This document shows, piece by piece, positions 5,402 to 20,712 of a stretch of DNA of 22,681 bases (position 1 is the first letter of the stretch; every line of letters begins with the position of its first letter). The notes beneath the pieces are model-generated. The model was given only the letters and a program-made list of their open reading frames with translations, ran no database searches and had not been told where the DNA came from. The position numbers and the translations under genes are program-made. Origin of the DNA: a virus; the IMG/VR virus record IMGVR_UViG_3300046532_003672, positions 1-22,681 of that record. One strand, written 5' to 3'.

Positions 5402-5767
5402 GAATATGAACAAATTTTAAAACGCTTTCCTTTTTTGAGTATAATCAAATCTAATGATAAAGAACACGTCGGTATCATTCAACAAAACGATACGGCATTT
5501 ATTATGTTTTATGATTACAGTTTAATTAAAGATAAAAAGTTAAAAGAAGAATTTATTTCATTAGGTGAAACTTGGTGGTGGGAATCAAACAGACGTATTC
5601 CCATTACATTGTTTCTTCATAAACAAATGAAAAAATTTTATCCTTACTTAACAGTTTTAACAGCAAAAAATGTAATAATCGAAAAGGGACACGAAATAAA
5701 TTTGTTCAACTTTTCCGGAAAAAAAACTAAGCGAAGAACAATCGAACTAGTACAAAAATCTAGTTAA
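5399..5767 (+). CDS. Hypothetical protein, 122 aa
   Basis: The start is ATG 5399, the first in frame after the late box at 5358-5365. There is no convincing Shine-Dalgarno. The product is basic, soluble-looking and mixed alpha/beta, with a conspicuous WWWESNRRIPITLFL segment at about 58-72 and a C-terminal GKKTKRR cluster that could bind nucleic acid. I cannot name a family. It is a solitary plus-strand gene; its stop overlaps the end of the dioxygenase gene by 8 bases, tail to tail. Being driven by a late box suggests late expression. Confidence 0.65.
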   Translation: MEYEQILKRFPFLSIIKSNDKEHVGIIQQNDTAFIMFYDYSLIKDKKLKEEFISLGETWWWESNRRIPITLFLHKQMKKFYPYLTVLTAKNVIIEKGHEINLFNFSGKKTKRRTIELVQKSS

Positions 5768-6464
5768 TTGGATCAATTTTATCTAGTTGATCACATACTG
5801 AGTTACTTACTGCATTTATTAACAAAAGTCTTCTGTTATTATCTGTAGTATTTGGCATTGTGCTATGTAATAATCGACCATCCCATAGAATTAAAGTTCC
5901 TGGTGGTGCGATATGTTGTTTGTTATTATCTAAAAAGAAGTCCATATATTTTTCGTGATCTGTATTTTTTCCTAACTCATTTAAATCATATGTTATCACA
6001 TGTGACCCTGGTACAAATGCTGTGCCGCCATTTTTTTCTGTAAGCTCATCAATAGTGATAGCTATTTGCATTCCAATTAAATCTGTTCTATCTTTGAATT
6101 CCCAAAATCTATAAGGTGTATCTACATGTGGTCTATATATAAGTTCTTTTTGTCTGTTGGAATGAGAACAATTTACAATAAAATCAGTTGCACGAAAAGT
6201 AAATGGTCCTAATAAGTCAGTACAAATTGGTGATAATTTTTCTTTGATTAAATTAAGAATATCACTATCATGTATTTGTGCAGTATAATAAAACAACCAC
6301 GGTAGCTTCCACGGATCGGCAAGAGTCCAGCCAGCACTTACTGCGCCTCTACAAGGTGGTAAACTATCACATAATTCTTTTAATTTAGTAATAGTAGTGC
6401 TATCTACAAAATTAGGTATAACTGTATATCCTTGTTTTTTTACTTCGTTTATTGCTTTTTCCAT
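5760..6464 (-). CDS. 2-oxoglutarate/Fe(II) dioxygenase, phytanoyl-CoA dioxygenase (PhyH)-like
   Basis: A 234-aa protein with the double-stranded beta-helix metal site: H113-V-D115 (RPHVDTPYR), then H200 in WDGRLLHSTMPN, then R211/R212 in NNRRLLLINAV as the likely 2OG carboxylate ligand. The stretch NGGTAFVPGSHV is characteristic of the PhyH family. Such enzymes hydroxylate small molecules, lipids, bases or proteins using O2 and 2-oxoglutarate. They are frequent in marine T4-like phage genomes, with physiological substrates mostly unknown. The ATG at 6464 overlaps the previous gene's TAA (TAATG), so it is the last gene of the gp62-like/zinc-finger/mini-polymerase unit. The catalytic residues look intact. 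Confidence 0.88.
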   Translation of the reverse strand: MEKAINEVKKQGYTVIPNFVDSTTITKLKELCDSLPPCRGAVSAGWTLADPWKLPWLFYYTAQIHDSDILNLIKEKLSPICTDLLGPFTFRATDFIVNCSHSNRQKELIYRPHVDTPYRFWEFKDRTDLIGMQIAITIDELTEKNGGTAFVPGSHVITYDLNELGKNTDHEKYMDFFLDNNKQHIAPPGTLILWDGRLLHSTMPNTTDNNRRLLLINAVSNSVCDQLDKIDPIN

Positions 6465-14914: not shown

Positions 14915-14922
14915 TATTTATC
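14915..14922 (-). promoter_or_regulatory. Late promoter GATAAATA upstream of gp32
   Basis: The minus strand reads GATAAATA and contains the TAA stop of the 313-aa gene. The predicted start near 14909 gives a 110-base leader that includes the early promoter. gp32 would therefore be made both early and late, as in T4. Confidence 0.6.
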
Positions 14923-15859
14923 TTCGATATTCCTTATTTCGTTCAATATACTCTTTAAGGGTTTCTGGCTTCTTTTTTACACTTTCAGTAACTACTTGTT
15001 TGTCTGTTTTTGCGCCATCTTCAGTAAGTACTTCTCGTTGTTTATCACCTTCTGTAACTATTTTTGATAATTTACGCATATCAGTATCTTCACTCATTTT
15101 TTTAACAGTACTTTTTATATTTTTATTATGAGTATGAGCTCGTTCTTTTAAAATGTTTAAATCAGTTACTGAAACCATTTCTTTAATACCATGATTCCTA
15201 AACCTAACATTATAATGAGAAACGTTACCATCATCTGTTAATGTATGTTGTTCACGAATACAATATCCTTTTCCAAATTCTTTATGTTCAACATGAACTG
15301 CACAATTATGTGGAACTTTTTCGGCTACTTCTTTTATTATATTAGCAAATTTACGCATTTTTGCACTTTCGCCATAATAACCATAATCTTCGTCTGTACC
15401 CATTCCAGCTGATGCCATAGCAGAATCATGGTCTCCGTCAACACGAGCATCCCCTGGACCACCACTAAACATTCCAGTTTCTTGTTCCCATTCATATCTC
15501 GCATCATCAATGATTGCTTCGTTACCATAATGGTTGATATCTTTATTCATATCGGCAATTTCATAATCAATATGATCTTGACTAGTACCCCATGCCGCCA
15601 TTTCATCATGCACACCACCCTCAAGTACGTTAAGAGTAATTACATCACCGTTTTCGTCTACATCTGCGGTATACTTTACATAACCAAAAAACGTTTCTCC
15701 GCCTTTGCCGACCCATTCGTAGTCGTCAATTTGGCCGTCAATTGTCATATTACCTGATTCAGTAACTATACGTTCTGCTTTGTCTAACGTATCAATTTCC
15801 TCAGCCTTTAAACCGGCAAGGTGTTTTAAATGATCTATAGTTTGAATATCTGGAATCAT
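14918..15859 (-). CDS. Hypothetical protein, 313 aa, with tag motifs and a Tudor/SH3-like segment
   Basis: The start is ATG 15859 in an ATGA overlap with the preceding gene; GGAG lies 7 bases upstream. The N-terminus holds HLKHLAGLKAEE (10-21). The middle is acidic and Gly/Tyr/Asp-rich. Residues 188-237 (VHVEHKEFGKGYCIREQ, then HYNVRFRNHGIKEMVSVTDL) look like a small beta-barrel resembling the C-terminal Tudor-like domain of UvrD helicases. MRKFANIIKEV (168-178) and MRKLSKIVTEG (261-271) are repeated helices. Four [IVL]xE sites (IVTE 31-34, IVTE 267-270, VLTE 277-280, VVTE 289-292) resemble T4 prohead-protease sites. A head-internal or assembly protein is a guess; the function is unknown. Confidence 0.65.
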   Translation of the reverse strand: MIPDIQTIDHLKHLAGLKAEEIDTLDKAERIVTESGNMTIDGQIDDYEWVGKGGETFFGYVKYTADVDENGDVITLNVLEGGVHDEMAAWGTSQDHIDYEIADMNKDINHYGNEAIIDDARYEWEQETGMFSGGPGDARVDGDHDSAMASAGMGTDEDYGYYGESAKMRKFANIIKEVAEKVPHNCAVHVEHKEFGKGYCIREQHTLTDDGNVSHYNVRFRNHGIKEMVSVTDLNILKERAHTHNKNIKSTVKKMSEDTDMRKLSKIVTEGDKQREVLTEDGAKTDKQVVTESVKKKPETLKEYIERNKEYRR

Positions 15860-17250
15860 TGTGCTACTCCTGCTAACTTTGTCATTCTTGCTATTGATGG
15901 GCTAATAATTGCCGGTTCAATAGCATCTTGCTTTTTAGGCATTTCTTGTTTTTTAACTACTTCTTCTTTTATAGCATCAAAAAAGATATCATTACCTGAA
16001 AGTTTGCTTAATTTTTGATTAAGGGTTTCTTCAATAACCTCAAGAGCATCTAGTTTCTTTTCGCTTTCAAAAGTAATATTTGTTTTTACCATACGAAGAA
16101 CTTTATTTCTATCATCAACATCCATGTCTGAAAATCCAGTAGCAACTTCGTTCAATAATGTTTTAAGTTTTTCATTGATTGCTTTTTCACCAATGTATTC
16201 CAACCATTGTTGATTCTTAACTGTAACATCACTAAATTCGAAGTTACTTGGGTTGTTTATGTCGTCATCCTCAAACAAACCAAGTTCTATCTTATTTTCA
16301 AGAAGAGCAAGTTCTAGCCGTTCCATTACTGTACCTTCTGAAACTAGTTTAGAAAGGTAAGGAAGAACCCCTGCCAACCGTTCATCAAATGTGTGTTGTG
16401 TTAAGACTTCTTGCAATTCGTTTTCGACATTTTCGTCACTTTTACTCTCGTTATTAAGAGTTTCGATCGCTTCAGTATATGTACGAGAACTTTTAATATG
16501 TGTTAATGTTTCCTTAATAGTACCTATACGCAAAGTTGCTAATTCATGAAGTCCGCTTACGCTATCATTTTCATGAAAATTATGACGTGTAAACTTAGTA
16601 AAATTCTTAAGTTCACTCATTTCTTCGTCAAGTGCAACAATACCTTGTCCACCAGTATCAAACGGTGTCCCTTCGTTTGCTATGTGTCGTGCCATTGCCC
16701 TAGCGGGGAGTAAATTTTTGCTAGGAAATTTAAAACGTTCTCCTTGGGAGTTCTCAATATAAATTGATTTTATATTGCGAGCTCTACTACCACGTGATTC
16801 TTCATTAACAGGTTTTGCATGACGTACAACCAATCTAGTACCGCCTACATCCTGATAGGATGACTTTGAAGAACCATATGACTTTGAAAAAGAACTTTCG
16901 GTAATATCTGTCATATCTGCTTCCTTATTTAAATCGAAAATATAATCTTTAGGTTCTAATCTATGCCCAAACTTTTTAATATTAAAATCTATCATGTATT
17001 TTTTAGCTAAATGTTTTATTGTATTAATAGTATCTTTAAAATCGCTAAACTCTACTTCTTTACCTAGATGAATTTTAATTTCCTCGGAAGACGAATGTAC
17101 TATGATATTATTATCAGTTACAAAAAACCGAGTAGCTTTGCCGGGGTTTATAACTTTTGATCCGTCTTCATCATACATGCGAATAGTATATCCAAATCCT
17201 TTTAATATATTGAATATATTTTCGCCAATTGTGTTTAGATCAACCGCCAT
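15856..17250 (-). CDS. Conserved-looking hypothetical protein, 464 aa
   Basis: It starts at ATG 17250 with AAGGG nine bases upstream, after a GATAAATA late promoter. The N-terminal 100 residues are mixed alpha/beta (FGYTIRMYDEDGSKV, ATRFFVTDNNIIVHSS). Then comes a Ser/Tyr-rich region (SFSKSYGSSKSSYQ), a block with GTRLVVRHAKPVNEE and RARNIKSIYIENSQGERFKF, and ARAMARHIANEGTPFD, which I associate from memory with conserved unknown proteins of marine T4-like phages. The last 200 residues are helical and acidic. The C-terminus is SIARMTKLAGVAQ, the same xLAG tag seen at the N-termini of two neighbours. It lies between terL and the 313-aa gene and is coupled to the latter. A structural or assembly role is inferred from the late promoter only. 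Confidence 0.65.
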   Translation of the reverse strand: MAVDLNTIGENIFNILKGFGYTIRMYDEDGSKVINPGKATRFFVTDNNIIVHSSSEEIKIHLGKEVEFSDFKDTINTIKHLAKKYMIDFNIKKFGHRLEPKDYIFDLNKEADMTDITESSFSKSYGSSKSSYQDVGGTRLVVRHAKPVNEESRGSRARNIKSIYIENSQGERFKFPSKNLLPARAMARHIANEGTPFDTGGQGIVALDEEMSELKNFTKFTRHNFHENDSVSGLHELATLRIGTIKETLTHIKSSRTYTEAIETLNNESKSDENVENELQEVLTQHTFDERLAGVLPYLSKLVSEGTVMERLELALLENKIELGLFEDDDINNPSNFEFSDVTVKNQQWLEYIGEKAINEKLKTLLNEVATGFSDMDVDDRNKVLRMVKTNITFESEKKLDALEVIEETLNQKLSKLSGNDIFFDAIKEEVVKKQEMPKKQDAIEPAIISPSIARMTKLAGVAQ

Positions 17251-17272
17251 AAATCATAACCCTTCTTTATGA

Positions 17273-17280
17273 TATTTATC
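17273..17280 (-). promoter_or_regulatory. Late promoter GATAAATA for the 464-aa gene
   Basis: The minus strand reads GATAAATA; the TGA stop of terL overlaps its first bases. The predicted start near 17267 gives a leader of 17 bases to the ATG at 17250 with an AAGGG ribosome binding site. Confidence 0.65.
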
Positions 17281-18835
17281 AAATAAACCCAATCGGCATG
17301 GGTAAGTCGGACGGGTCTGTCCCAAGCGGATCTATTAATTCCTCATAAGCACCTTCGTCATGTTTCGTTAATGTTTGAACAATTCGTACACATAACACGG
17401 CTGCCATTACTAAATCATCATGTTCTCCGTCTTTGGCGGCAAAACTTCTACCTCTAGCAACAAATACTTTGAGTTGTTTTATTAAATTTCTGCTATAAAT
17501 TTTTATTTTTTGATTCTCAACAAAATATTTTAATCTAGCACATGCTTCTAATTTATTATTAAGCGTTGTTACCATACCTTTATAAAATTTTTGTCCTCGT
17601 AATTTAGGCTCATTAACTAACACTCCATAAAAATTTTGAAGACCTAACTCTTCTAGAACTTGAATTGATGCTTTGCCTATACCATTATTTTCTATACTAT
17701 AATAAATGTTATTTTCATCTTCTTGTACTTTGTGTATTTCATCTAATATTTCTTGTAATACAAGAATTTGCTTACGTACATCAGTTTTATTATGTTGCCA
17801 TTCTGCAACTTGCTGAAGTCCTGGTAAACTAAAAACTTCTATAGCAGAGAAATCGCTTCCTGTACCGATACACGGATCTAATCCAATTATATAGGTTGAG
17901 GTAGATTTTAATTGCCCAAACCAACGTATTTCTCCTGTTTTACGTACAGCATCTTTTGCTTCCATTAATACTAATTTTAATGGTGAAATTAATGTTTCAT
18001 CTGCTGTTATAAATTCACATTCGTGTTCTCTTCTAAAACGTTCTTCACCTATTTTACCTCGTTCTTCTGCGGCCCATGCATCATTGCGATCAGGATGTTC
18101 ATTCCAATATGACCTAAATGGTTTAAATCCATTTTTACCTAATTCCTGTTCGTTACCATAATCATCAATATTATCTACTGCTGATTTCCATATTTGTGCA
18201 AATTGATCATTATCTTGGTTTGGTGTACTAGTAATAATACATTTACCGCCCGTTGATAGTGTTGGTGAGATTGATGTCCAAAATTCTTGTGCTATTCGTG
18301 GTGGCACAAATGCAAACTCGTCTAAGTAAATTAATGTTAAACTCATACCTCTACCAGTATTTTCAGTTGTTGCTTGCGATACTATTCTACTGGCATTATC
18401 AAACTCTATACTTCCTCGATTATAACTTGTGCAACCGGCTTTAATCCAATCTGGCAACATTTCATAAATGAAGCGAACACGTTGCATTATTTCCTGAGCG
18501 CCAGCATATTTGTGAGCGGCAATTAATACTGTACTATCAGGTTTAAACATACAATACCATAGCAAGTATGCCGCGGCCGCAGTAGACTTTCCTGTTTGCC
18601 GGGGTAGCATTGCAATAGCATATCGATAATCGTTATATGTGTTTATTAATTTTTCTTGATACTCAAATAAATCAAACTTAACTTTCCCTTTTATAGGGTG
18701 TTGTATATAACAATAATGCTTAACAAAATGAATTGGATCATCGATACAAATAGTAAATTCATCTATTTGTTCTGGAGTCCATTGCTGAGCTTGATATGGT
18801 TTTTTAATTAAAGAAGTGCTTGCTTGATTTAGCAT
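17279..18835 (-). CDS. 17: Terminase large subunit (gp17)
   Basis: A 518-aa packaging motor. ATPase domain: adenine/Walker A LPRQTGKST (77-85), Walker B LIYLDEFAF (168-176) with catalytic E173, and coupling motif ITSTPN (201-206). Nuclease domain (RNase H fold): D320 in IIGLDPCIGTGSD, E382 in SIENNG, and D473/D474 in HDDLVMA, the expected metal triad. It translocates DNA into the prohead and cuts at headful ends. It is shorter than T4 gp17 (610 aa) but all motor and nuclease motifs are present. It starts 10 bases after the 265-aa gene with only a weak GAGAT ribosome binding site, unlike T4, where gp16 is the direct neighbour. Confidence 0.95.
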   Translation of the reverse strand: MLNQASTSLIKKPYQAQQWTPEQIDEFTICIDDPIHFVKHYCYIQHPIKGKVKFDLFEYQEKLINTYNDYRYAIAMLPRQTGKSTAAAAYLLWYCMFKPDSTVLIAAHKYAGAQEIMQRVRFIYEMLPDWIKAGCTSYNRGSIEFDNASRIVSQATTENTGRGMSLTLIYLDEFAFVPPRIAQEFWTSISPTLSTGGKCIITSTPNQDNDQFAQIWKSAVDNIDDYGNEQELGKNGFKPFRSYWNEHPDRNDAWAAEERGKIGEERFRREHECEFITADETLISPLKLVLMEAKDAVRKTGEIRWFGQLKSTSTYIIGLDPCIGTGSDFSAIEVFSLPGLQQVAEWQHNKTDVRKQILVLQEILDEIHKVQEDENNIYYSIENNGIGKASIQVLEELGLQNFYGVLVNEPKLRGQKFYKGMVTTLNNKLEACARLKYFVENQKIKIYSRNLIKQLKVFVARGRSFAAKDGEHDDLVMAAVLCVRIVQTLTKHDEGAYEELIDPLGTDPSDLPMPIGFI

Positions 18836-18845
18836 CTATCTCGTA

Positions 18846-19643
18846 TTATTGATTTCGTGATGCCGCTTCTTGACGTCTTCGGAGGGCACTTTTATATCCT
18901 GGCTGTCCAGGTTTAAGCGAAGTATTATACCCTGTATTTGATGTATTTGATTGTGTGCCCCGACGTTGGCCTGAAGGCCAATGCGTTTTACTATTTTTAC
19001 TTACAGCTTTTGGTGCGGGTTTGTTTTTTTGTTTTTTTCCACTCCATTGAGATAGATCATCTGTGCCTACACTTAAATCAAGCGGGCCTAGTTTGTGTCC
19101 AAGTCGACCACCCAATTTAGCGTTGCCATCTTTATCAAACGCCATCTTGAGTCCACCTAGAAAACTACCAAGTTTAATGCCACCTAAGCCAATATCCCAA
19201 CCAGCTTCTTCAACTGGGGTTGTCAGCTCTTTTTTTTTGAAGGATTGCCATTCAGCCATTAGCTGAACTTCGTTAAGGGGATTGTCGCCGTTTTCTGTGC
19301 CACTGTCAGCTTCTTTGCCACGAGTTTTACCAAATCCTCTAAAGGACATATCATCAATGTCACCAAGTTCCATAGGTGAACCACTAAATTCAGGTGATGC
19401 ATTTTCAAAATCATCGGACTCGTGTTCGTATACTTCTTCTTCAACAGGACCTTCTTCAGGACCTTCTTGGGGAGATAATATTTGGATTGTGTCACGCATA
19501 TCTTGAGTTGGGTGCATTCCACATCCGCCACCAACAGGTGCACCATCATCTGATGGAATTTCGGGTTCAGCCGGAGGTGCTGGAGCTTCATGTTGCACTC
19601 CTGCTAGTCTAACTAAATCTTCTAATTCTATGGACACCTTCAT
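18846..19643 (-). CDS. Hypothetical protein, 265 aa, low-complexity, between gp16 and gp17
   Basis: It starts at ATG 19643 with AAGGA 7 bases upstream. The N-terminus holds LEDLVRLAGVQHE (7-19), then a Pro/Glu/Gly-rich acidic region (APAPPAEPEIPSDDG; EGPEEGPVEEEVYEHESD). A glycine-rich repeated segment follows at about 150-195 (WDIGLGGIKLGSFLGGLK; KLGGRLGHKLGPLDL), and a basic, Ser/Asn/Gln-rich disordered tail (NKPAPKAVSKNSK, KSALRRRQEAASRN). I do not recognise it. The glycine-rich stretch could be membrane-interacting or beta-helical, but is not a clear transmembrane segment. It is translated immediately before the terminase large subunit. Confidence 0.6.
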   Translation of the reverse strand: MKVSIELEDLVRLAGVQHEAPAPPAEPEIPSDDGAPVGGGCGMHPTQDMRDTIQILSPQEGPEEGPVEEEVYEHESDDFENASPEFSGSPMELGDIDDMSFRGFGKTRGKEADSGTENGDNPLNEVQLMAEWQSFKKKELTTPVEEAGWDIGLGGIKLGSFLGGLKMAFDKDGNAKLGGRLGHKLGPLDLSVGTDDLSQWSGKKQKNKPAPKAVSKNSKTHWPSGQRRGTQSNTSNTGYNTSLKPGQPGYKSALRRRQEAASRNQ

Positions 19644-19644
19644 A

Positions 19645-20265
19645 TTATTTCCTTGCTGTTTTTAATTTTAAATCTTTTCCTGGATTTGGTATTGTGTTCT
19701 GGCCGCTTAACGGACTTGTTTTATCACCTTCGGGTATTTCTGTTGCAGTCTCTGAGCTTTCGCTTGCAAAGTCAAACTTTCTGCTCTCTAAACCCTTAAG
19801 AAAATCTACATTATATTCACCGCCATAATATCTACCATCACTTTTAACTTCGTCACCTGAATATTCAGTTCCCATAATAGCTTCTTTAGGACCTTCGTCA
19901 GGAACTCCTTCTTCTTCAAGTTCATTAAGTGGATCAGCTAGGTTTCGAACTTTTAACTTATATTCTGGTAAGTTAAGATATTCGACTAGTTGTTGTTGTA
20001 ATATATGAGGTGCAACTGGTAAATTTAATTTTGCATCTACAATATAAACATCTATTGCACTACCTTGACTAGCAAATTCTAGTGGCTTGGTTTGCGTCAT
20101 TAATTTTCTAGCAGAAGAAATAGAATCAGGATTATATCGTTTAAAGAATACATCCATTTTATCATCAATGTCAGGATCTACTTTTTCTCCCAACGGAACT
20201 GCCATTTTAACACGCAAATCATATTGCTTTTTTGATTCGGTTAAATATTCATTTAACGATTTCAT
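19645..20265 (-). CDS. Protein with N-terminal capsid-targeting-like peptide, 206 aa
   Basis: The start is ATG 20265 with AAGGA upstream. The N-terminus MKSLNEYLTESKKQ closely resembles T4 internal-protein targeting peptides (MKTYQEFIAEA style), with an LTE/S site like those cut by the gp21 prohead protease. The next segment (YDLRVKMAVPLG, then DPDIDDKMDVFFKRYNPDSI) is a small alpha/beta domain I associate from memory with widespread marine-phage proteins of unknown role. The second half is Gly/Tyr and acid-rich (GDEVKSDGRYYGGEYNVDF) and looks disordered. It lies 2 bases upstream of the 265-aa gene and 3 bases after the acidic gene. A head-internal protein is suggested, not shown. Confidence 0.6.
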   Translation of the reverse strand: MKSLNEYLTESKKQYDLRVKMAVPLGEKVDPDIDDKMDVFFKRYNPDSISSARKLMTQTKPLEFASQGSAIDVYIVDAKLNLPVAPHILQQQLVEYLNLPEYKLKVRNLADPLNELEEEGVPDEGPKEAIMGTEYSGDEVKSDGRYYGGEYNVDFLKGLESRKFDFASESSETATEIPEGDKTSPLSGQNTIPNPGKDLKLKTARK

Positions 20266-20268
20266 ATT

Positions 20269-20712
20269 TTATTCCTTGTCGTCGTCTTTTTCTTCTCTGA
20301 CTTCGTCTTCTTTTTCTTTACTTGCCTCAGAAACCATATCAGAATATTTTCTTAATAGTGTTTGGGCTGACTGATCCGGACTTGGCTGCCATTGACCTTC
20401 TTTAGATTCATCAACTTCATCTTTAGATTCGTCATCTTCTTTTGCTTCATCGACAACTTCTTCGTCTTTAGATTCATCAACTTCATCTTTAGATTCGTCT
20501 TCGTCATTAGACTCGTCAACTTCTTTACCTTTTTTAGCATCAATATGTGCTTGTAATGCCGGAGGCAAGGTGCCTTCTTCGACTTGTTCTTCGGATTCGT
20601 CGACTTCTTTGGCTTCGTCAACTTCTACTTCTTCTGCTTCTTGCACGGTATTTTGTGCATCAAGCATATCAGCATATTTGCGAAGTACAGTAACTGAATT
20701 GCTATAATCCAT
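20269..20712 (-). CDS. Very acidic repeat protein, possible prohead core (gp67/68-like) component
   Basis: A 147-aa protein. It begins with a helical tag VTVLRKYADMLDAQ (8-21), then a long Glu/Asp-rich region of repeated DESKDEVDESKD units (about 23-105), then a second tag TLLRKYSDMVSEAS near 118-131, and an acidic end. T4 prohead-core protein gp67 is similarly small and acidic, and MVSE/A is a plausible prohead-protease site, but this is resemblance of composition, not homology. It follows the GATAAATA late promoter at 20750-20757 and heads the block between gp16 and gp17. The coding repeats are nearly identical at the DNA level. Confidence 0.6.
   Translation of the reverse strand: MDYSNSVTVLRKYADMLDAQNTVQEAEEVEVDEAKEVDESEEQVEEGTLPPALQAHIDAKKGKEVDESNDEDESKDEVDESKDEEVVDEAKEDDESKDEVDESKEGQWQPSPDQSAQTLLRKYSDMVSEASKEKEDEVREEKDDDKE
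20399..20433. repeat. 35-bp direct repeat, copy 1, in the acidic gene
   Basis: The 35 bases at 20399-20433 recur exactly at 20465-20499, 66 bases apart, in the same frame (DESKDEVDESKD). Such DNA-level identity suggests recent duplication or slippage, giving length variation among relatives. Confidence 0.85.
20465..20499. repeat. 35-bp direct repeat, copy 2, in the acidic gene
   Basis: This is the exact second copy of the unit at 20399-20433. The spacing is a multiple of three, so loss or gain of a unit would keep the reading frame. Confidence 0.85.

Follow-up and report, generated by a model that had tools for sequence, protein, structure and literature searches.

Short recurrent tags on proteins encoded around the terminase gene of a giant T4-like phage, and the identity of one class of them with the scaffold C-terminus

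Why do five neighbouring proteins of a virus carry the same short peptides? The question is raised by the virus record IMGVR_UViG_3300046532_003672, a stretch of 22,681 bases that was analysed as a whole and is called the window below, in which the genes between positions 14,918 and 20,712 encode proteins of 313, 464, 265, 206 and 147 amino acids (aa). A first-pass annotation had noticed short recurrent tags in these proteins, had taken the tags as one set, and had likened them to capsid-targeting or scaffold-docking peptides with prohead-protease sites. The five open reading frames (ORFs) contain all the strings it named, in frame and on the minus strand, and these belong to two different classes that had been lumped together. 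The first is an MK/RK class, MK[ST][LF]xxY[LI][AT]E[SA] with the variant [ML]RKYxDIIxE[SA], which resembles the capsid targeting sequence (CTS) of T4, and the second is a LAG class with the pattern [IL]xxLx[KR]LAG[ILV], which occurs at the N- or C-terminal end of the protein. The newly found element is the identity of the LAG tag with the extreme C-terminus of the gp22-slot scaffolding protein of giant T4-like phages, from PA5oct to RaK2, 121Q and Phosso.

LAG tags and the C-terminus of the scaffold

The window carries genes for gp17, tail tube, gp4, gp32 and UvsX-like and helicase-like proteins, almost throughout on the minus strand. By the identity of its terminase with those of Pseudomonas phage PA5oct (Arenbergviridae; 51%) and Sinorhizobium phage Phosso (47%), the window is a piece of a giant phage of the T4 superfamily. 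Another contig (L002) contains the same genes again, with a terminase identical to that of the window. The carriers of the LAG tag, and the terminase gene that lies among the tagged genes, are as follows.

14918..15859, minus strand: 313-aa protein with an N-terminal LAG tag, two internal RK/CTS-like tags and a tudor/SH3-like domain
15809..15838, minus strand: LAG tag IDHLKHLAGL, residues 8-17 of the 313-aa protein; DLRKLAG[LI] in L007, L008, L012 and L013
15856..17250, minus strand: 464-aa protein (phrog_13484, virion structural protein) with a C-terminal LAG tag
15865..15894, minus strand: C-terminal LAG tag IARMTKLAGV, residues 453-462 of the 464-aa protein, two residues before its C-terminus
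17279..18835, minus strand: large terminase gp17, itself without a tag; the anchor for finding relatives
18846..19643, minus strand: 265-aa low-complexity protein with an N-terminal LAG tag
19596..19625, minus strand: LAG tag LEDLVRLAGV, residues 7-16 of the 265-aa protein

When the tags were counted against shuffled proteins, the window contained three terminal LAG tags where approximately 0.15 were expected and four matches to [MLI]RK[YFLMI]xx[..][ILVM] where approximately 0.05 were expected, so that the recurrence noticed at first pass stands well above the shuffled expectation. For comparison with relatives, 80 terminase loci, 80 scaffold loci and the complete or long relatives were combined into a set of 4,594 distinct proteins. 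Gene calling followed a simple longest-ORF rule, and families were clustered on sequences with both ends removed, so that the tags could not drive the grouping. The tags of both classes proved to be conserved in homologues, their absence from which had been named as grounds for rejecting the idea, and they persist although the surrounding sequence has diverged. The Phosso orthologue of the 464-aa protein has IARLRKLAGI in the same position, and gp281 of PA5oct, which occupies the slot of the 265-aa protein just upstream of the terminase, is LAG-tagged and starts with MFNINDILRLAGV. Two more recurrent motifs of the 265-aa protein, [DE]MR..[IL] and GDNPLxE...[LM]...[YW]..F, are also retained in otherwise diverged relatives.

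Scanning of whole genomes for the LAG tag revealed a coiled-coil-like protein of approximately 366 aa that ends in it. Its gene follows the portal and the gp67 and gp68 slots and has the gene for the gp21 protease (PF03420) on one side and that for the major capsid protein on the other. Each of the seven complete or long relatives checked (PA5oct, G001, G002, G003, Phosso, Vibrio 2.275 and GAP32) showed this gene order together with the LAG ending. In 121Q ('T4 gp22-like'), Munch and MIJ3 the LAG-ended protein is annotated as scaffold. A phmmer search with the PA5oct protein, gp330, gave no match in T4 or cyanophage S-RIM12, that is, no detectable homology to T4 gp22, and for this reason its identification as the gp22-slot scaffolding protein is based on gene order and annotation. 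The last residues are typically [AE][DE]I[IV]xL[RK]KLAGI, and the ending was kept in 42/42 sampled homologues and in 69 of the 70 members of the family. Degenerate tails were found in RaK2 (LSGIIKK), 121Q (LSGINKK), Hallingskeid (LAGMTKK), SCTP-2 (NAGIKKN), RAS14 (LAGIDF), XacN1 (LAGIKG) and Atu_ph07 (LAGIKK). Among the PA5oct proteins listed by electrospray ionization tandem mass spectrometry (ESI-MS/MS), gp330 is missing and the adjacent gp329 and gp331-gp334 are flagged, as would be expected if gp330 is a scaffold.

The gp22 scaffolds of T4 and S-RIM12 do not end in LAG, and no C-terminal LAG tags were found in the two proteomes. A mirrored arrangement in these phages was rejected, the ends of their own scaffolds (YAKVASRF, YVDAIARWSK) being absent from their other proteins. 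A literature search found no description of the LAG tag, which does not prove that there is none.

When families were counted by any single terminal match, the LAG motif was poorly separated from permuted hydrophobic versions, and the test was therefore rerun on conserved families. Among the 148 families that have four or more members, the terminal LAG tag is kept by seven, compared with 0.20 on average and 2 at most for 199 permuted motifs; besides the scaffold, these are six unrelated families that conserve the tag at their ends. Positions outside the search pattern were examined as well. A hydrophobic residue stands at -3 in 58/65 LAG tags and 49/110 internal matches (p = 1e-9), and K or R at +2 in 43/65 and 25/110 (p = 2e-8); an acidic or polar residue at -4 is likewise favoured, the p values of unselected positions ranging from 1e-8 to 1e-10. 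In one genome of 318 kb the tag was found at six C-termini against 0.08 expected. A likeness due to chance or to common protein ancestry has in its favour that only seven residues define the pattern and that loose versions arise by chance, as in the single matches among N-termini. It is contradicted by the family count, obtained on families built without their ends, by the agreement of the unselected positions and by the six C-termini, and we regard it as extremely improbable.

The LAG tag shifts between neighbouring genes by clade. In one clade the 464-aa orthologues lack it, and the proteins upstream of the terminase are tagged at both ends instead. Three tagged genes lie beside gp17 in the window as well as in near relatives, and with tagged genes flanking the large terminase gene in this way the tags might be adaptors to the packaging motor or the portal. 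The strongest carrier, however, is the scaffold, whose gene is far from that of the terminase and which by T4 precedent is lost before packaging, and the C-terminally tagged genes of G001 are spread across the genome; adaptors of this kind are quite improbable.

AlphaFold2 predicted a helix at residues 451-459 of the 464-aa protein on a disordered linker (419-450); in the 206-aa protein it placed a helix at residues 4-10, ahead of a ferredoxin-like domain, the terminal residues having low to moderate confidence in both models. Fold comparison found the 206-aa model ferredoxin-like without a specific match and gave no significant match for the 464-aa model, and sequence searches for relatives with solved structures found none. 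The LAG tag reads as an amphipathic helix with a conserved hydrophobic spacing of -3/0/+3. Such a helix could be a homotypic or core-binding element that links the scaffold and the tagged proteins to each other or to the gp67/gp68-slot core protein and not to the coat, and the proteins with LAG at both ends (L021, L022, L024 and L028) are arranged as in a cross-linker. Against this, the scaffolds of other tailed phages bind coat protein through the C-terminus, and we consider a homotypic or core-binding role unlikely, though worth keeping in view.

The MK/RK tags and protease sites

The MK/RK tags are found in three of the five proteins, two of them without LAG.

15326..15358, minus strand: RK/CTS-like tag MRKFANIIKEV, residues 168-178 of the 313-aa protein
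15047..15079, minus strand: RK/CTS-like tag MRKLSKIVTEG, residues 261-271 of the 313-aa protein, with an L/I/V-x-E site before G
19645..20265, minus strand: 206-aa protein (phrog_14802) with a CTS-like N-terminus, a ferredoxin-like domain and a C-terminal SPLSG motif
20233..20265, minus strand: CTS-like tag MKSLNEYLTES, residues 1-11 of the 206-aa protein, with the site LTE before S
19702..19716, minus strand: SPLSG motif, residues 184-188 of the 206-aa protein, common to the portal and gp68-slot proteins of relatives
20269..20712, minus strand: 147-aa acidic protein with an RK tag at each end
20662..20685, minus strand: RK tag LRKYADML, residues 10-17 of the 147-aa protein
20323..20355, minus strand: RK tag LRKYSDMVSEA, residues 120-130 of the 147-aa protein, with the site VSE before A

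The N-terminus of the 206-aa family reads MK[ST][LF]xxY[LI][AT]E[SA]xK. Residues 4 and 7 of the T4 IPIII CTS are known to govern targeting, and residues 8 and 10 processing (PMC9026906). The 206-aa family is in the same ten-residue register as the N-termini of T4 IPIII, IPII and IPI (a hydrophobic residue at 4, an aromatic one at 7, I/L at 8 and E at 10): the window protein and 18 distinct family sequences have a peptide of approximately ten residues with hydrophobic or aromatic residues at 4 and 7, and the window protein has the processing residues at 8 and 10 as well. The pattern used for the MK/RK tags also retrieves the internal proteins of T4 itself. Co-occurrence of the tags with gp21, which in T4 cuts at L/I-x-E, had been proposed as a check at first pass and was found in 7/7 complete or long relatives, the window itself being a 22.7-kb fragment. 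In contrast to T4, the RK form is also internal and C-terminal, in acidic two-copy proteins, and several homologues lack E10.

The RK consensus of the 313- and 147-aa families is [ML]R[KE][YF][AS][DN][IM][ILV]xE[SA], and the counterparts of MRKFANIIKEV in relatives are MREYADIISES (L006) and MRKYADIISES (L014). Other proteins have this form at the N-terminus (in G003, L058 and L067), and a Phosso ORF has it close to the N-terminus. The tudor/SH3-like domain of the 313-aa protein (15116-15334, residues 176-248) also occurs in phrog_22379, phrog_11470 and phrog_764 (cytidyltransferase) and, being common to several phrogs, gives the impression of a domain that moves between phage proteins. On L010 (2223-4403) a 726-aa member of the 464-aa family ends in the RK tag of the 313-aa family (MRKYADIISESNKII) and is apparently a fusion of these two neighbouring genes.

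CTS-like N-termini were also seen in a DUF6267 protein of G001 (158004-159107; MKKYDFILTERV) and in a nucleotidyltransferase-like protein of S-RIM12 (145574-146731; MKKFSAFLTEAEK). Another G001 protein (309709-311058), with DUF6745 and MORN-like repeats, combines a CTS-like N-terminus (TLLEYINYNKEKF) with a C-terminal LSG tag and clusters with gp279 of PA5oct, an MS-listed protein. An Acb1-like protein of G001 (88255-88767, L109:8255-8767; PF23474, E = 1e-11), which is of the type that counters the cyclic-oligonucleotide-based antiphage signalling system (anti-CBASS), has the N-terminus MEIFMKTFKEYLKEQE, close to a T4-type CTS, and may be packaged and injected.

The statement that several tags are followed by [ILV]xE, and with it the processing by a prohead protease, held as a sequence pattern for the MK/RK tags and found no support for the N-terminal LAG tags. 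A site follows the latter in 10% of cases against a background of 16.5%, mostly with none adjacent, and in view of this lack of enrichment [ILV]xE beside these tags was rejected as a processing site. Upstream of C-terminal LAG tags on cargo proteins a site was present in 51% against 18%; this difference was set aside as evidence of cleavage because those tails are acidic. In the scaffold, [LIV]xE[SAGTN] was found in 68/70 tails, approximately 30-40 residues upstream of LAG and, in the tails printed, before TG[DN][KR], and gp21 may thus remove the tail. Judged from these patterns, the prohead protease may plausibly cut at the MK/RK tags and in the tail of the scaffold. The LAG tags do not qualify as a T4-type CTS, since their sequence is different, they occur at either end, and L/I-x-E is not enriched next to those at N-termini.

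The 206-aa family has a second link to the head. The motif SP[ILV]xG near the C-terminus was found in exactly three conserved families (135, 137 and 181), namely in 40/50 portal proteins, 25/60 gp68-slot core proteins and 22/43 members of the 206-aa family. The presence of the motif in the portal and the gp68-slot protein connects the 206-aa family with the head irrespective of its N-terminal tag.

A possible route into the head

The reading that we favour, and hold to be rather probable, is that the tags are short sorting peptides, or addresses of the head interior, which bring proteins into the prohead by CTS-like docking and by docking in the manner of the scaffold tail. An MK/RK tag, as an N-terminal or tethered helix, would dock on the assembling core as the T4 CTS does and could be cut off by a gp21-type protease after L/I/V-x-E. 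LAG-tagged proteins would use, from either end, the docking contact of the scaffold itself, by mimicry or by joining the core through the same contact; the contact would most likely be with the coat protein, on its inner face, and otherwise inside the core. Co-assembled with the scaffold, such proteins would be enclosed in the head. The first-pass wording 'scaffold-docking peptide' came close for LAG, this being the C-terminus of the scaffold, the docking itself being predicted from that likeness.

Evidence from virions comes from PA5oct, in which the gene order is the same as in the window. Homologues of the 206-aa protein (gp282) and of the 464-aa protein (gp278) are listed with ESI-MS/MS, as are the LAG-tagged gp281 and the neighbouring gp279, and for the 464-aa homologue in GAP32 the annotation is virion structural protein. 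The presence of tagged proteins in virions, suggested at first pass, is partly supported by this listing of homologues. The listing also bears on the idea that the tags are signals for degradation or for chaperones and not head addresses. Host proteases can, as is generally known, recognise short hydrophobic C-terminal peptides; the tags, however, are also N-terminal, are conserved across phages of very different hosts and occur on MS-listed virion homologues, which makes such signals very improbable.

Several observations weigh against head addresses. The scaffold of the window itself falls outside the 22.7-kb fragment. Several members of the 206-aa family, including those of PA5oct (YDA) and Phosso (LSS), have no E10, and the cleavage site expected after N-terminal LAG tags is mostly missing. 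The MS-listed gp278 has no C-terminal LAG tag. The PA5oct list includes enzymes of nucleotide metabolism such as thymidylate synthase, so that listing is weak proof of location in the head, contamination or loose association being possible. In GAP32 and Vibrio 2.275 the tag is almost solely on the scaffold, and hence it is no universal cargo code.

Known systems offer several precedents. In P22, two C-terminal helices of the scaffold bind coat protein, and loss of 11 C-terminal residues abolishes binding (PMC9965877); foreign cargo fused to the C-terminal region of the scaffold is packaged in vivo (PMC9962691). The P22 protein, gp8, is similar in having a short helical tail, and LAG-tagged cargo would be the natural counterpart of the P22 fusions. 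The difference is that P22 uses a helix-turn-helix of approximately 30 residues and artificial fusions, whereas here a single short helix stands at either end of native proteins. In phage P1, the N-terminal signal of DarB is enough to direct a reporter to the head interior, and the study concerned found no consensus for the Dar proteins (PMC9024508). A terminal peptide would be the head address in both cases, but here many proteins, and the scaffold with them, carry one recurring tag. Encapsulin cargo-loading peptides, compared by description and not by sequence, are likewise short terminal addresses to the interior of an HK97-fold shell; the difference is that the LAG tag also belongs to an internal scaffold. 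Next to the T4 CTS and these systems, the tags are best regarded as a probable variant of capsid targeting.

A bolder form of the favoured reading is that giant T4-like phages have a natural, encapsulin-like address code, in which the coat-docking LAG helix of the scaffold has been copied onto the ends of many unrelated proteins, so that a gain of approximately ten residues would suffice for enclosure in the head and delivery to the next host, with fast turnover between lineages. We put this forward tentatively, as a possibility somewhat short of even. The head contents of giant phages are mostly obscure without mass spectrometry, and a tag common to the scaffold would, if head addressing is right, make head cargo predictable from sequence, injected anti-defence factors of the kind hinted at by the Acb1-like protein of G001 among it. 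Peptides with which proteins could be loaded into very large capsids would also be at hand, and within the HK97-fold lineage the tails of scaffolds would be linked directly and testably with the tags of cargo.

Elsewhere in the window, a 234-aa ORF (5760-6464) was judged by eye to be a putative phytanoyl-CoA (2-oxoglutarate) dioxygenase.

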